A stretch of 64,000 bases of DNA from an uncultured Paracoccaceae bacterium (lineage in GTDB: Bacteria; Pseudomonadota; Alphaproteobacteria; Rhodobacterales; Rhodobacteraceae): the NCBI GenBank assembly GCA_947500775.1, contig CANMTD010000001.1, positions 248,001-312,000 on the forward strand, written 5' to 3'. Positions within the stretch are counted from its first letter, which is position 1. Each line of letters opens with the position of its first letter. The notes below the pieces were generated by a model that was not told the origin of the DNA, did not search any database, and was given only the letters and a program-made list of their open reading frames with translations. A program made the position numbers and the translations under genes. Positions 29,957 through 41,390 of the stretch are shown in pieces.

Positions 29957-30694
29957 ATGATAGGCTATGTCGTGCAATGGCTGCGGTCGCTGGTGTTTGT
30001 CGGGCAGATGTACCTGATGATGGCGGTGCTGGCGGTGTTCTTCACGCCCTGGGCGATGGTGGACCGGCGCGGCGCTTTTGCCGGGATTCACACCTATTGC
30101 CGCTGGGTGCGCTGGACCGCGGGCTGGATGATCGGGCTGAAATCCGAAATCCGCGGGCAGGTGCCCACCGACGAGGTGCTGATTGCCGCCAAGCACCAGT
30201 CGTTTTTCGACATCATCATGATCGTGTCGGTGGTGCCGCGCCCCAAGTTCATCATGAAGAAATCCCTGCGCTGGGCGCCGATCCTTGGCTATTACGCCTA
30301 TCGCATCGGCTGTGTCGCGGTGGATCGCGGCAAACGCGGGCAGGCCATCCAGAAAATGGTGCGCGATGTGGACAACGGGCGGCAATTGCCCGGCCAGCTG
30401 ATCATCTATCCCCAAGGCACCCGCGTCGCCCCGGGGGTGTCGCGCGGATACAAGATCGGCACCGGCATCCTGTATGACCAACTGGCGCAGGACTGTGTGC
30501 CGGCGGCCACCAATGTCGGCGTGTTCTGGCCGCGCACGGGTATTTACCGCAAGCCGGGGCTGGCGGTGGTGTCGTTCCTGCCGCGCATCGCGGCCGGAAA
30601 ACCGACCGATGAATTCATGGTCGAACTGGAACAGGTGGTGGAAACCGCCTCGGATAAACTGATGGCAGAGGCGGGCTTTGACCCCGAAGGGTGA
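29957..30694 (+). CDS. plsC: 1-acyl-sn-glycerol-3-phosphate acyltransferase
   Basis: 245 residues. The acyltransferase motif HX4D is HQSFFD (80-85), and the glycerol-phosphate-binding motif is YPQGTRVAPG (151-160), a variant of PEGTR with Gln in place of Glu. An N-terminal hydrophobic helix (about 13-33) places it at the inner membrane, where it makes phosphatidic acid from lysophosphatidic acid. It starts one base after the ftsX stop. The Gln substitution is seen in many alphaproteobacterial PlsC proteins, as far as I recall. Confidence 0.9.
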   Translation: MIGYVVQWLRSLVFVGQMYLMMAVLAVFFTPWAMVDRRGAFAGIHTYCRWVRWTAGWMIGLKSEIRGQVPTDEVLIAAKHQSFFDIIMIVSVVPRPKFIMKKSLRWAPILGYYAYRIGCVAVDRGKRGQAIQKMVRDVDNGRQLPGQLIIYPQGTRVAPGVSRGYKIGTGILYDQLAQDCVPAATNVGVFWPRTGIYRKPGLAVVSFLPRIAAGKPTDEFMVELEQVVETASDKLMAEAGFDPEG

Positions 30695-30696
30695 CA

Positions 30697-31299
30697 ATGG
30701 AATACCTGACCGATATCGCAGCGCTTGAGGCGCTTTACGGCACCCCCAGCGTGCCCGCCATGCGCAAGGTCGCGCAGCAGATGACGCCGCAATACCGGCG
30801 CTGGATCATGACATCGCGGTTCTGCGTGCTGTCGACCGTCGGGGCCGGGGGCACCGACGGCAGCCCGCGTGGCGACGACGGCCCGGTGGTACAGGAACTG
30901 GACCCCCATACGCTGGCCATGCCCGACTGGCGCGGCAACAACCGTATGGACAGCCTGCGCAATATCGTCGAGGACGGGCGCGTGTCGCTGATGTTCATGG
31001 TGCCGGGGTCCAACACCGTGGTGCGGGTGAACGGCACCGCGCGGATCACGCTGGACGATGATCTGCGCGCCCGGTTCGACCACAAGGGCAAACTGCCGCG
31101 CAGCGTGATCGTGATCGCGATATCCGAGGTTTATACCCAATGCGCCCGCGCGGTCATGCGGGCCGGGCTGTGGTCGCGCGACGACAGCGCGGACCTGCCC
31201 ACGCCGGGCGATATCCTGTCCGACGTGACCCGGCAGGAAATCGACGGTCAGGCCTATGACCGGGACTGGGCCGACCGTTCGTCCAAGACCATGTGGTAA
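30697..31299 (+). CDS. Pyridoxamine 5'-phosphate oxidase-family flavoprotein
   Basis: 200 residues from the ATG at 30697 (GAAGGG five bases upstream); a GTG two codons earlier overlaps the plsC stop. The split-barrel FMN-binding fold is indicated by FCVLSTVGAGGTDGSPRGDD, then MPDWRGNNRMDSLRNI, resembling the MSMEG_1061/DR2398 subgroup of PPOX proteins. Those bind FMN, but their reaction is unknown. It is last in the ftsEX-plsC run. A short hairpin (CCCC-GTAA-GGGG) follows the stop. Confidence 0.85.
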   Translation: MEYLTDIAALEALYGTPSVPAMRKVAQQMTPQYRRWIMTSRFCVLSTVGAGGTDGSPRGDDGPVVQELDPHTLAMPDWRGNNRMDSLRNIVEDGRVSLMFMVPGSNTVVRVNGTARITLDDDLRARFDHKGKLPRSVIVIAISEVYTQCARAVMRAGLWSRDDSADLPTPGDILSDVTRQEIDGQAYDRDWADRSSKTMW

Positions 31300-31326
31300 A
31301 GAGACCCCGTAAGGGGGGGCATCGCT

Positions 31327-31710
31327 TTAACGCGCGGCGTCGGAAACGGCCGGTTCCACCACCCGGATTTTCCGCCCCCCGGCCCTGACGAACTGAACCA
31401 CGTCGTTTTTACGCACCCGCCGCGGGGATGTGATCGGGGGCTGTTCAGCGGTCTCGGCGGCCGGATCGGTCATCCCGCGCAAACGGCGCCGGAACACCAG
31501 TATATGGCGCTGCTGCACAGGCCTGCGCAGCATCCAGCCGCGCCGACGATGCGGAAGCGTTTCGGCGCGCACATAGTCCCAGCCGTCCTGACCAAGCTCG
31601 TTCATCAGCCCTGAAATGGTCAGTGAAAAACTGTCGTCCCCCCGTTTCAGGCCCTTGATCCGCCGCGACTGATCCGGCGCAGGAACGACTTTAAACTCGT
31701 AAACAGCCAT
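31327..31710 (-). CDS. DUF4177-like small protein
   Basis: 127 residues from MAVYEFKVVPAP, chosen for its GGGGAG site; the frame is open further upstream. The first ~65 residues (MNELGQDGWDYVRAETLP) match the DUF4177 pattern, a small alpha/beta domain of unknown role. The rest is basic and Pro/Arg-rich and probably disordered. It is convergent with the PPOX gene and lies downstream of the di-haem gene's terminator, so it has its own promoter. A TTGACA is present on its strand at 31784-31789 without a good partner. Confidence 0.75.
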   Translation of the reverse strand: MAVYEFKVVPAPDQSRRIKGLKRGDDSFSLTISGLMNELGQDGWDYVRAETLPHRRRGWMLRRPVQQRHILVFRRRLRGMTDPAAETAEQPPITSPRRVRKNDVVQFVRAGGRKIRVVEPAVSDAAR

Positions 31711-31821
31711 AACACTCCCCTTGCCCCCACACTCAGCGTTACCCATCGGGGCAGGGTCCGGCAAATTAATTGTGGCAAAATCTTGTCAAAACAGTGTTCA
31801 CAACTTGGCAACAGCCCAATC

Positions 31822-31880
31822 AAAAGGGGGGCGAACCCCTTGGCGACGGACAGCCGTGCCAAGGATTTCGCCCCCCAAAA
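31822..31880 (-). terminator. Long nested hairpin terminator after the di-haem gene
   Basis: Outer stem GGGGGGCGAA (31826-31835) pairs with TTCGCCCCCC (31867-31876). Inside it CCTTGGC and GCCAAGG form a second stem. On the minus strand the structure ends in CCCCCC followed by TTTT, 16 bases after the stop of the di-haem gene. Confidence 0.75.
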
Positions 31881-31895
31881 ACAGGGTCAGCGCCC

Positions 31896-33665
31896 TTAGA
31901 TGGATTTCAGATATTCCAGGATCGCTTTTTTCTGGGTTTCGGACAACGAGGTGCCGTATTCATGTCCGCACCTGCTGTTGCCGCTGTCCAGATCGGAACA
32001 ATCGGTCGTTTCCAGCGTGTGATCGAAAAATGTCTGATCCGCCGCCAGCCCGACCGCCTCGATGTCATAGTTCCCGCCCAGCTTGAAACTTGCGGCCCGT
32101 TCGGACGCGGGTTTCAGCAGATCGCTTAACGACTGGACCGATCCGTTGTGCAGATAGGGGGCCGCCGCCCAGATGCCCTGCAACACCCGCGCCTCGTATC
32201 CGCAGCTTGGCCCGGCGGTCAGCGCGGCCTGATCCGACACCTCGGGTTCGGGCAGGGTGAACGCTTCGGACAGGCCTTCGAATTCGGCCGGGTATCCGCG
32301 GGTGCCCGACGGATCGGCGCTGCGCATCAGCGCGTTGTCGTCCAATGCGGCGACATCTTCGTCCAGCCCGTGGGTAAAGTTCTGGACGATCCCCCCAAGG
32401 ACCGAGGTCGCAAGCACCTGAAACGCGGTTTCCTCTGGCCCCAGTTTGTCCAGCGAGAACGGGACAAAGGCGCCGTCCAGCACCCCGGTTTTCACGGTCC
32501 GCGTCAGGATCTGGCATTCGCGTCGGTCAGTGCCCACATCCACAACCGGCGTTTTCCATGTGGAATGAAAGATCGACCGGAACGCGCCCTTCTTGATCCC
32601 GTGGCATTCGACGCAGCCACCGTTTTCCGTGGACAGGTTGAAAATCTGCTCACCCTGCGCGGCCAGATCGGTATCCAGTTCCCAGGGCCATTTCGGCGCG
32701 CCGATTTTCCAGATCCAGTCCTCCAGCACCTTCAGCCCTTCGAAATTGGCCGAGTTGTTGGTGATATAGTCGCGGTTCAGATAGCCCGATTTCTTGACCG
32801 GGTGAAATTCGCCGAAGACGCCGTAAACCTCGCCCAGATTGCGGGCCAGACCCAGGATCGCGTCGCCATTGGAGGCAAAGCCCGGCCATTGGGTCCGGTC
32901 CTGGCGGGCGGCGTTCCACAGGAAGGGATAGCGTGTCGGCGCATCCGCCACGGCGATGTTTTCGGGGATCAGGTGATCCGGCGCCTCGCCCAGATCAAGC
33001 CCGGCCAGCCGGTTGAAGATCATCGACACCGCATCCAGCCGCGATGGCCCCCACGCAGGATCGGGCAGCGCGCGGTCGATCAATGTGTGGAACCGCAGGC
33101 TCCACATTTCGACCTCGACCTTCAGGGCGGCGATTTTGGCGGCGGGGGCGTCGTCGCCCAGTATGTCGGTTGCAAAAGTGGCAAAGCTGGCGTCGTCGAC
33201 CAAGGTGGCCAGAACCGCGTCATCCAGATCTTTCAGAAAGGCCTGAAAATCGACAACCGCCGGACCGCCGTCGATCCGGTAATTGGTGCCGTTCACGTCG
33301 ATCTGCCGGGTGTGGCAGGCCGAACAGGTCATACCGATCGAGGTTTCCGGACCCGTTCCGGTCAGGGTAAAGCCCAGCGGAACATCGGCATCTTCGCGCC
33401 CCTGCAACGCAAGGTATCCATAGCGTGTCAGCGCATCGTCCAGAAATCCGGCGCCATCGGCTGTTTTCAGTGCCCGCATCCAGGCCACCGGCATGATCCG
33501 CGATCCCTGATCCTGGGTATAGAACCTGTTGCGCAGCGAATTGGTCCAATCCTGACCCTGATCGACATATACGGTTTGCGCTGACACAGGGGCTGCAAGA
33601 ATGATGCCCAAAACAGGGCCTAAAACTAAACTGGATACGCGAAATATAATATTTCTTCCCGTCAT
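31896..33665 (-). CDS. RoxA-like di-haem cytochrome c peroxidase-family protein
   Basis: 589 residues. A signal peptide (about 1-29, cleavage near VSAQ|T) sends it to the periplasm. Two haem c motifs are present: CSACH (114-118) and CVECH (351-355). Segments such as RYPFLWNAARQDRTQW, ARNLGEVYGVFGEF and IWAAAPYLHNGSVQSLSDLL resemble the large di-haem branch that includes rubber oxygenase RoxA, rather than ordinary CcpA or MauG proteins. The substrate is unknown; peroxidase or oxygenase activity are both possible. A GGAGG site precedes the start. It is single, with its own regulated-looking promoter and terminator. Confidence 0.85.
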   Translation of the reverse strand: MTGRNIIFRVSSLVLGPVLGIILAAPVSAQTVYVDQGQDWTNSLRNRFYTQDQGSRIMPVAWMRALKTADGAGFLDDALTRYGYLALQGREDADVPLGFTLTGTGPETSIGMTCSACHTRQIDVNGTNYRIDGGPAVVDFQAFLKDLDDAVLATLVDDASFATFATDILGDDAPAAKIAALKVEVEMWSLRFHTLIDRALPDPAWGPSRLDAVSMIFNRLAGLDLGEAPDHLIPENIAVADAPTRYPFLWNAARQDRTQWPGFASNGDAILGLARNLGEVYGVFGEFHPVKKSGYLNRDYITNNSANFEGLKVLEDWIWKIGAPKWPWELDTDLAAQGEQIFNLSTENGGCVECHGIKKGAFRSIFHSTWKTPVVDVGTDRRECQILTRTVKTGVLDGAFVPFSLDKLGPEETAFQVLATSVLGGIVQNFTHGLDEDVAALDDNALMRSADPSGTRGYPAEFEGLSEAFTLPEPEVSDQAALTAGPSCGYEARVLQGIWAAAPYLHNGSVQSLSDLLKPASERAASFKLGGNYDIEAVGLAADQTFFDHTLETTDCSDLDSGNSRCGHEYGTSLSETQKKAILEYLKSI

Positions 33666-33713
33666 TTGACCGGTCCTCCAAAAAATTATGCGTTAAAATA
33701 AACTCGTGAATAT

Positions 33714-33736
33714 CCATACACGTTATAATTGTATGG
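33714..33736 (-). promoter_or_regulatory. Inverted repeat around the -10 region of the di-haem gene
   Basis: CCATACA (33714-33720) and TGTATGG (33730-33736) form a seven-base inverted repeat with a nine-base spacer. On the minus strand the spacer holds TATAAC, a fair -10 box, with TTGCGA 15 bases further up. A repressor bound here would block the promoter. The surrounding ~90 bases are AT-rich. The rest of the 234-base gap to accA shows no gene. Confidence 0.45.
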
Positions 33737-33899
33737 CGATTCTCGCAATTTAATTTTCCGAAAAGGCTTGCCTGACGTGTGGGTCAACGGGCGGACGGTC
33801 GGTCGCGCAGCGTCAGGAATTAAAGGCATTCCCACGGTTTAAAATGGCACCGGCAATGGCACCGTAGGGATCGCAAAGTTGCTTGGAAAGGGGGCCGGA

Positions 33900-34859
33900 T
33901 CAGGCCGCCAGCCCCTTGCTGCCCATTTGCAGGAATTTCTTGCGCCGGTCCGCGATCAGCGTGGCGCGGTCCATGCCGTCCATCCCGCTCAGCATGTCGT
34001 TGATCGTGCGCCCGACGGTGGCGATGGTCTTGTCGCGCGCCCGCTGTGCGCCGCCCTGCGGTTCCTTGATGATCAGGTCGATCACGCCCAGTTTCTTCAG
34101 GTCCTGCGCGGTCAGGCGCAGCGCCTCGGCCGCTTCGCGCATCTTTTCGGCGTCTTTCCACAGGATGCTGGCGCAGCCTTCGGGCGAAATCACCGAATAG
34201 ACCGAATGTTCCAGCATCGCCAGACGGTTGGCCGTGGCAAAGGCCACCGCCCCGCCCGATCCGCCTTCGCCGATGATGACCGAAATCAGCGGCACGCCGA
34301 TTTCCAGACATTTCTGGGTGCTGCGGGCGATCGCCTCGGACTGGCCGCGTTCCTCGGCCCCCTTGCCGGGATAGGCACCGGGGGTATCGACCAGCGTGAC
34401 CACCGGCAGGTTGAACTTGTCGGCCATCTCCATCAGGCGGATCGCCTTGCGGTATCCTTCGGGCCGGGCCATGCCGAAATTCCGTTCGATCCGCGATTTG
34501 GTGTCGGTGCCCTTTTCATGGCCGATCACCACCACGGGGCGGTCGTTCAGCCGCGCCAGCCCGCCCATGACCGCGTGGTCATCGGCAAAGTTCCGGTCGC
34601 CCGCCAGCGGGGTGTATTCGGTGAACAGCGCCTTGATGTAATCCTGACAATGCGGCCGGTCGGGGTGGCGCGCGACCAGGCATTTGCGCCAGGGGGTCAG
34701 GTCCTTGTACAGGTCGCGCAGCAGATCGGCGGCCTTCTTGTCCAAGGCCGAGGCCTCTTTCTCGACGTCCATCTCTTCGTTCTTGCGGGCCAGCGCGCGC
34801 AATTCTTCGGCTTTGCCTTCGATCTCGGCCAGCGGCTTTTCGAACTCGAGATAATGCAT
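33900..34859 (-). CDS. accA: Acetyl-CoA carboxylase carboxyltransferase, alpha subunit
   Basis: 319 residues from [20 protein letters not shown], with GGGAG upstream. The core contains GARHP-type residues ([15 protein letters not shown]), [40 protein letters not shown] and [10 protein letters not shown], the crotonase-fold oxyanion-hole region. With AccD it transfers carboxyl from biotin to acetyl-CoA to make malonyl-CoA for fatty acid synthesis. The gene stands alone, with a terminator-like hairpin upstream belonging to the preceding gene. Confidence 0.97.
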
Positions 34860-40361: not shown

Positions 40362-41390
40362 TCAGATATGCAGCAACATCGCCTCGCGCCGTTTCAGCGC
40401 GGGGCGGACAAAGGCCGCGATCTTGTCGCGGATCATGCCCAAAAGCTCCATCTCCATCTTGGCAGAGGGGGCTATGCAATCGGTGCCGGGATACAGGCTT
40501 TCGGTGCGCACGCCATTCACGATCAGGATTTCGTGCTCGGCCAGCAGAATATGCCGATAAGTGATTTCTGAACTGTCGGGGGCCCAGCAAATGCTGTCGC
40601 CGTTGATCAGGCTGACCGCCGAGGCCAGAACCTCGGTTTCGCCAAACAACAGATCCGTCTCGGCAGAGGAAATCAAAAAGCGGTGCTGCGGCGACACCAC
40701 CATATCCGCAGAGGGTTCGCTTGGGCCAAAGGCATCTTTGCGGATCAGAACCGGGCGCATCATCGGAAACAGCATCAGCTCTAGCGGCGATGGCACCCGC
40801 GACCCCAGCCACAGAATGGGCTGCGCGCCACTGTCGAGAGTGGAGACAAGATCGCCAACCTTCAGGTCTTCGATGGCGACGGGACCGCTGGGAGTATTGA
40901 CCATCGCACCGTCGGTGAAACAGGGCACTTCTTCTTCGGGGACGGCCTGACTGTCCGCGTTGCTTTGCACCGTATAGCTGGTGCCGGGCGTCGGCAGCAC
41001 AGGGCCACTGATGCCGACGTTGACGCCGTCGATGCGCACCACCCAAAACGTTTCGCCCGTTGTTGTCGTGAAGGCAAATTCAAGCTCGATCTGATCGCCG
41101 ACCTGAAAATTCCGGCCGTTGATCGAGATGTCTTGAGTCAGAAGCTGATCGTTGTTGTTGTTTGACGGATTCGAGCCATTGCCGGGCACGTCAATGAAAC
41201 CATCGTGAAAGTCATTGTCGGGCGAACCGACCGGGTTCCCGTCGTCATCCTGAACATGGACAATGCTCAGCGCTGCGGGGTCGTTCAGCCTGAAGGTGGT
41301 CCCAATGCCGTAGCCGGTTGTGCTGTTGGTATTCGCACCAGACCACTGGTCGAAGCCATATATAGGTACTGTGAAGTTGAAAACGGCCAT
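40362..41390 (-). CDS. Hint-domain protein
   Basis: 342 residues. The N-terminal half (to ~150) is Asn/Asp/Gly-rich, without a signal peptide and resembling secreted adhesin or bacteriocin-type segments. The Hint domain starts at PCFTDGAMVNTPSGPVAIED (Cys157), with SPQHRFLI (His236) and YRHILLAEHEILIVNG (His280, His286), as in hedgehog/intein-like domains that cleave or rearrange the chain at the cysteine. Many roseobacter genomes carry such proteins near the cell surface or in RTX-type secretion. No secretion genes are nearby. There is no clear ribosome-binding site before the ATG; TTATAC upstream could be a -10 box. Confidence 0.85.
   Translation of the reverse strand: MAVFNFTVPIYGFDQWSGANTNSTTGYGIGTTFRLNDPAALSIVHVQDDDGNPVGSPDNDFHDGFIDVPGNGSNPSNNNNDQLLTQDISINGRNFQVGDQIELEFAFTTTTGETFWVVRIDGVNVGISGPVLPTPGTSYTVQSNADSQAVPEEEVPCFTDGAMVNTPSGPVAIEDLKVGDLVSTLDSGAQPILWLGSRVPSPLELMLFPMMRPVLIRKDAFGPSEPSADMVVSPQHRFLISSAETDLLFGETEVLASAVSLINGDSICWAPDSSEITYRHILLAEHEILIVNGVRTESLYPGTDCIAPSAKMEMELLGMIRDKIAAFVRPALKRREAMLLHI

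Follow-up and report, generated by a model that had tools for sequence, protein, structure and literature searches.

Among proteins with the RoxA fold, the literature that we found describes an activity only for the rubber oxygenases and for one pair of fatty-acid enzymes. In RoxA, the N-terminal haem, bound by His195, is catalytic and faces a distal pocket of hydrophobic character, in which Phe301 and Phe317 lie next to O2; the C-terminal haem is held by His394 and His641, and Trp302 lies between the two haems (accessible portions of PMC10837239, PMC6797691, PMC6311187 and PMC4496055). RoxA has a stable oxy-haem; most of its variants at Phe301 and Phe317 show a ferric N-terminal haem. A Trp at the Trp302 position does not decide the matter, as a table in PMC6311187 gives Val at this position for active RoxB. 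According to the same paper, expression of roxA in E. coli was not improved by additional maturation genes. The fatty-acid pair comprises PA2077, a 10S-dioxygenase, and PA2078 of Pseudomonas aeruginosa, FadCcp enzymes of the RoxA di-haem type with 634 and 624 residues. As printed in the accessible portion of PMC4496055, both carry Gln in place of Phe301, and PA2077 retains Trp302 and has a Phe (F269) at the Phe317 position.

The window analyzed here, by which we mean the whole 64,000-nucleotide stretch of DNA, encodes a protein related to these enzymes (Table 1). Its product contains the motifs CSACH (residues 114-118), CVECH (351-355) and PYLHNGSV (503-510). Both haem-binding motifs had been reported in an initial annotation of this DNA, which assigned the protein to a large di-haem family, and this assignment was borne out by profile searches. 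The protein matched NF040606 over the entire profile (438.3 bits against a cut-off of 150, profile positions 1-524 of 524) and the Pfam family RoxA-like_Cyt-c (58.9 bits against 26.7). Models of the rubber oxygenases gave only local matches, far below their cut-offs: 41.9 bits for RoxA (NF050033, cut-off 1000), 59.9 bits for RoxB (NF050034, cut-off 900) and 58.3 bits for RoxC (NF051462, cut-off 900). By profile models, the focal protein is a full-length member of NF040606 that is distinct from RoxA, RoxB and RoxC. A whole-genome profile search recovered a single NF040606 match in this genome, the focal gene itself. The N-terminus is of the export type by inspection, and the protein is probably periplasmic.

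Table 1. Positions of the focal gene and of the features around it, in window coordinates.
Feature	Position	Strand	Details
PNPOx_N-domain gene	30691..31299	+	Flank opposite accA
145-aa ORF between the focal and PNPOx genes	31327..31764	-	Weak DUF4177 similarity, 14.1 bits against a cut-off of 25
Terminator-like hairpin	31826..31876	-	10-bp outer stem, 12-bp inner stem, U-rich tail
Di-haem c-type enzyme gene	31896..33665	-	589 aa; NF040606 family; from ORF, profile matches and alignment
Export signal, residues 1-29	33579..33665	-	VSA/QT, by inspection; helix 6-23 in the AlphaFold2 model
Shine-Dalgarno-like GGAGG	33675..33679	-	Nine bases upstream of the focal ATG
Imperfect inverted repeat	33705..33745	.	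16-nt arms, 81%; core CCATACA-N9-TGTATGG at 33714-33736
accA	33900..34859	-	Upstream flank of the probable insertion

The name that NCBI gives to NF040606, "di-heme-cytochrome C peroxidase", favors a true periplasmic peroxidase, in which the N-terminal haem would reduce H2O2 or organic peroxides with electrons delivered by cytochrome c through the C-terminal haem. However, the Pfam scan, in which weak matches can be filtered, returned no match of the focal protein to PF03150 (CCP_MauG) at E<=0.1, although four other places in the same genome matched this family, one of them with 119 bits.

To examine the fold, we used an AlphaFold2 model built from 39 aligned sequences (mean pLDDT 86.8, pTM 0.87). 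A Foldseek search against the PDB yielded a sole match at E<=0.001, RoxA (4b2n, E 5.4e-11), with a loose global superposition (TM 0.46, rmsd 12.3 over 693 columns). RoxA was also the top match in VIA-align (Z 16.1, rmsd 4.2 over 408 residues, 21% identity), followed by the hydrazine synthase gamma subunit (Z 11.6), YhjA (10.4), BccP (10.2) and other CcpA/MauG entries down to 7.9. The CcpA/MauG-type entries thus spanned Z 7.9-10.4 over 193-243 residues; the core that YhjA, BccP and MauG have in common with the focal protein (Z 9-10) is in keeping with a peroxidase. From rank 31 downward (Z at most 5.2), the matches, many of them resting on a single long helix (residues 139-204), were treated as common arrangements. 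Because RoxA ranks first and the CcpA/MauG entries follow over fewer residues, the modeled protein is RoxA-folded on a common di-haem core. The initial description as a RoxA-like di-haem enzyme therefore stands with respect to fold and to the missing PF03150 match. It does not extend to function, since the scores against the RoxA, RoxB and RoxC models are at least 15-fold below their cut-offs and Phe301 is aligned with Gln.

Alignment to RoxA pairs His195, His394 and His641 with H118, H355 and H568 of the focal protein, the predicted haem ligands. We counted motifs in 80 clade sequences, namely the query and 79 of the best 80 of 184 relatives confirmed in a scan of named genomes; the remaining locus, L155, was dropped because it gave no full ORF by the rule used. 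The displayed alignment comprises 37 of the 79 clade homologues together with the query. The pattern GHx[FY] near the C-terminus occurred in 77/80 sequences. Hhalign paired RoxA F301-W302 with Q259-W260 (99.8% probability overall), as did phmmer, in which that stretch scores only 0.5 bits. These two residues open a segment, QWxG-x12-RNxx[E/Q], that was present in all 80 sequences, with Trp at 260 throughout and Glu (74 sequences) or Gln (6) as its last residue. Q259, R275 and N276 were furthermore invariant in 39/39 alignment rows, seven of them from outside the clade. Among further NF040606 members outside the clade (49 after removal of duplicates), the pattern fitted 24, with loops of 7-21 residues, and did not fit 25; in those that fitted, the residue before the Trp was Gln in 18, His in 5 and Pro in 1. 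The counterpart of Phe317 differed by alignment: phmmer (without a gap) gave R275 and hhalign gave F284; when motifs were aligned by eye, it was G278, E279 or G282. Overall, the active-site comparison that the initial annotation had proposed found the equivalents of the three haem-ligand histidines and Trp302 kept, but Phe301 replaced.

We also noted a pair of cysteines, C556 and C566 (encoded at 31968-32000 of the window), next to His568. Both were present in 78/79 clade homologues from the best 80 of 184 relatives, 73 by pattern and five by eye, as the pattern missed or only half-matched these five sequences. The one exception, a planctomycete MAG (L149), lacks both. Retention of the pair in nearly all homologues and its joint loss in the exception suggest a probable C556-C566 disulphide near the putative C-terminal haem ligand.

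In the focal clade, the conserved segment has Gln, Arg and Glu or Gln at positions that in RoxA are occupied by Phe301 and further hydrophobic residues, which argues for an amphipathic lipid or its hydroperoxide as the substrate. Lipids are our first guess because PA2077 and PA2078 likewise have Gln for Phe301 and PA2077 keeps the Trp after it. We thus tentatively read the product, with slightly less than even confidence, as a RoxA-folded di-haem c-type enzyme that is exported, probably to the periplasm, and belongs to an uncharacterized NF040606 clade, the most likely substrate being an amphipathic unsaturated lipid or its hydroperoxide and not polyisoprene. Put more broadly, our best guess is an oxygenase or peroxidase of lipids or peroxides. 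Sequence and model establish the family and fold of this putative enzyme, its two haem-binding motifs and a conserved segment, Q259-W260 ... R275-N276-x-x-E/Q279. The alignment further indicates that His355 and His568 would be the axial ligands of the C-terminal haem, with Trp260 at the place of the inter-haem Trp302. In such an enzyme, the N-terminal haem, with His118 as its proximal ligand and an open distal side, would be the catalytic center that activates O2 or peroxide, and the C-terminal haem may act as an electron relay.

A Glu or Gln on the distal side would suit a peroxidase equally well. A residue of this kind at 279 in 80/80 clade sequences is what would be expected of the acid-base residue, and it is because of this equal conservation that the plain peroxidase is the main rival. 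Met or Tyr is the C-terminal haem ligand of CcpA or MauG, whereas the corresponding ligand here aligns with His641 of RoxA. Moreover, the profile comparison with CcpA left the N-terminal haem region of the focal protein unaligned. Taken together with the Pfam result, we regard a plain peroxidase as somewhat unlikely.

An isoprenoid-cleaving oxygenase, acting on polyisoprene, squalene, carotenoids or similar compounds in the manner of RoxA and RoxB, appears improbable to us. It would fit the closest structural relative as well as the retained CSACH motif and the equivalents of Trp302 and His641, but the Rox profile models fail, all 80 clade sequences have Gln at the Phe301 position, and a true RoxA coexists with the focal-clade protein in the same Sphingomonas genomes. 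Specifically, both genomes of Sphingomonas kyeonggiensis encode two separate proteins, a true RoxA (1231 and 1247 bits, cut-off 1000) and a member of the focal clade. Since these two genomes carry both, RoxA and the focal-clade protein are distinct and have long evolved apart. The RoxA references were drawn from this species because the phylum sample provided none (0/398 over the cut-off). The initial judgment that rubber was an unlikely substrate agrees with these results. As a separate branch with a different predicted active site, the focal enzyme probably oxidizes something other than rubber.

To place the protein among its relatives, we inferred two trees. In a quick tree of 72 rows, the query fell within a clade of 35 focal rows (34 homologues and the query) with an SH-aLRT of 93, rising to 100 with L025 added, and this clade stood apart from RoxA and the Ccp proteins of the focal genome. 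Measured along tree paths, the query was nearest to rows from Leisingera, Salinarimonas, Primorskyibacter, Pseudophaeobacter and Rhodovulum. The initial placement of this gene in a marine roseobacter is thus roughly right for its nearest relatives, although the clade is far wider. In a careful tree of 34 rows (13 focal homologues and the query), the clade and its sister L025 received 99/99 and excluded the genome's own Ccp proteins; without L025 the support was 76/83. RoxA joined the long-branched family members L033, L028 and L032, with a long-branch warning. With long branches in play, AU tests rejected neither a grouping of the focal clade with RoxA (p 0.275) nor one with Ccp (p 0.397). A position among ordinary CcpA peroxidases, the outcome that the initial annotation had singled out as adverse, was therefore not seen in the tree itself, although the AU test tolerates the focal+Ccp grouping.

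The focal clade is well defined and widespread within the named family, with members dispersed among roseobacters, oxidizers of ammonia and of nitrite, methanotrophs and rhizobia. In the host's own taxonomic family, a profile search found NF040606 over its cut-off in 21/394 genomes. Members of the clade itself occurred in 6/394 genomes (the focal genome and five others, one of them with a fragment) at 59-65% identity, with a seventh at 42%. NF040606 members outside the clade, from the same family and the phylum, were 25-33% identical to the focal protein where tblastn aligned most of the length, and L025 42%. Hosts among the best 80 of 184 relatives included Leisingera, Ruegeria, Rhodovulum and Primorskyibacter. 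Ammonia oxidizers (Nitrosomonas, Nitrosospira and Nitrosovibrio) accounted for 14 of the same 80, which also contained methanotrophs (Methylobacter, Methylocystis, Methylocapsa and Methylomonas) and Nitrobacter, Methylobacterium, Bradyrhizobium, Rhodopseudomonas, Sphingomonas, Acetobacteraceae and MAGs assigned to other phyla. A protein search of the Nitrosomonadaceae, the family of Nitrosospira multiformis, found a 55-59% identical protein in 22/125 genomes, each of the 22 listed with one clade copy, and a more distant or partial one in nine others. The clade thus appears richer there (22/125) than in the host's own family (6/394), figures that are only roughly comparable because one search used a protein and the other a profile; this enrichment hints at a possible link to ammonia oxidizers.

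Several related observations emerged from the same searches. A clade-like protein at about 51% identity is carried by 11 Bradyrhizobium plasmids, for eight of which the source is given as Glycine max or soybean, a possible route of transfer. Two genomes of the host's family encode NF040606 members that are roughly 1000 aa long and carry an additional CxxCH near the N-terminus, hence three haem motifs (L022:109-3102 and L023:100-3111); the first also has a Cytochrom_C match, raising the question of whether an electron carrier has been fused to a di-haem enzyme. The focal genome itself holds two tandem MauG/Ccp-type genes of 382 and 374 aa, which are distant relatives (L169:211-2496, around C1:463644-465209).

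Examining the genomic setting suggested how the gene came to this site. We found accA in 35/36 other genomes and examined 29 of these loci. In four (L174, L176, L184 and L188), accA lies beside a PNPOx homologue at a distance of about 85 to 940 nt, with no focal gene between them, and none of these four genomes yielded a match to the focal protein. A further 24 of the 29 loci had no PNPOx gene within the fetched 1.5 kb and one ended at a contig edge; these are uninformative on the junction. In the window, by comparison, the accA-PNPOx junction holds the focal gene and the 145-aa ORF. At third codon positions, the focal gene has 73% GC, compared with 80-84% for five genes nearby. Because the junction lacks the gene in four relatives and its GC3 is low, it is probably an acquired accessory gene that was inserted in this lineage; gene loss elsewhere is an alternative compatible with these data. 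The putative enzyme would accordingly be a single-gene, patchily distributed accessory enzyme.

The gene neighborhoods bear on what such an enzyme might act upon. Across 89 neighbors of 29 loci, no Pfam family recurred in more than four members, among 25 of 119 families listed; some of these neighbors are spurious since they were picked by longest ORF, and many scanned singly had no Pfam match. The lack of a recurrent partner argues against a maturation role of the MauG type. A MauG/MbnH-like enzyme that oxidizes a protein side chain shares the core fold, as MauG and the MauG-like 6e1c align at Z of about 9.5, but no recurrent adjacent gene offers itself as the protein substrate and the MbnH-family model scores 12.8 bits against a cut-off of 362.85; we consider this reading very improbable. 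Likewise, no single lipid gene family was represented more than twice among the 89 neighbors, within the 25 of 119 families listed, which counts against the lipid reading. Ribosomal protein L25 and peptidyl-tRNA hydrolase, annotated beside one homologue (L040), were discarded as partners, as they are common to ten Rhodobacteraceae-type loci (L082-L091) and represent background synteny; an FMN dehydrogenase is also common to four of these ten. A short-chain dehydrogenase cluster, annotated from one example, was found in varied places at 14 of the best 80 of 184 loci. Elsewhere in the window, positions 40362-41390 on the minus strand encode a protein of 342 aa in which a Hint_2 domain scores 163.2 bits. 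In L043, an 899-aa Hint_2/RTX protein, 38% similar to it, lies directly downstream of the focal homologue, probably by coincidence.

We next consider the signals that flank the gene. The terminator-like hairpin lies 19 nt past the stop codon and is followed by UUUUGAUU on the coding strand. The 84-nt stretch folds at -47.9 kcal/mol (z -4.4), and 0/200 shuffles were as good, although a simple consensus scan of 31300-34000 listed no terminator (0 found, shuffle mean 3.2). Given the strength of this hairpin, its short U-rich tail and its closeness to the end of the coding sequence, a terminator belonging to the gene itself, as first proposed, is a reasonable reading.

On the promoter side, the seven-base inverted repeat that the initial annotation had placed around a possible -10 box is exactly as described and extends into longer, imperfect arms (Table 1). 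Yet perfect 7-nt arms arose in 46/200 dinucleotide shuffles of 33666-33860, and the score of the extended repeat was reached in 12/200. The repeat occurs without mismatch only at this site in the genome, and allowing two mismatches added one further site, against three for a reversed-pattern control. The upstream regions of 78 clade homologues showed no conservation of the repeat: the best hit, in one sequence, had three mismatches and the best in a control region had four. For a sigma-70 promoter, a consensus scan of 31300-34000 came back empty (0 found, shuffle mean 0.8). The suggestion of tight repression has nothing beyond the position of the repeat in its favor. An operator at this site was therefore set aside, as the arms are near chance level, the repeat is not conserved and no promoter was found by consensus.

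A broader proposal is that the clade forms a new branch of oxylipin-forming di-haem lipid oxygenases that spread horizontally through nitrifiers, methanotrophs, purple bacteria and roseobacters. We hold this to be rather unlikely, but if true, oxylipin chemistry in bacteria would extend far beyond the one case of Pseudomonas aeruginosa. The literature searched, outside which most subscription papers lie, returned no study of the clade. The clade is attractive for testing: it is compact, its putative active site lies near a clearly conserved segment, and growable hosts exist (Leisingera, Rhodovulum, Nitrosospira and Methylobacterium). One tested member would give a function to a protein named by similarity only, and a verdict on the automatic name "peroxidase".

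Compared with the known systems, the focal protein is closest in fold to RoxA, with which it shares 408 structurally aligned residues, CSACH, the Trp302 and His641 equivalents and a GYxAxxLxGxWAxAPYxHNGSV segment. It differs in length (589 aa against 676 aa for the RoxA precursor used here, L163), in its 21% structural-alignment identity and in the Gln at the Phe301 position. With CcpA/MauG (PF03150) it has the two-haem core in common, at the Z-scores given above, but it is larger, gives no PF03150 match at E<=0.1 and is set off by long branches in the trees. Within NF040606, which it matches over the full length with both CxxCH motifs, it falls in one deep clade. The comparison with the FadCcp enzymes uses only the residues printed in the accessible portion of their source. 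There, PA2077 and PA2078 form a pair of related genes, against one NF040606 match in the focal genome, and a Phe is kept at the Phe317 position where the focal counterpart is R275, F284, G278, E279 or G282, depending on the alignment used. A pattern search for the printed PA2077 motif, PYFHNGSVP, in 249 genomes of one genus and 25 of a second gave no hit. Nevertheless, the spacing of the haem histidines is similar (245 and 235 residues in PA2077 and PA2078, 237 in the focal protein), and the Gln at Phe301, Q259 here, is shared with both enzymes, as is the retained Trp302 with PA2077.
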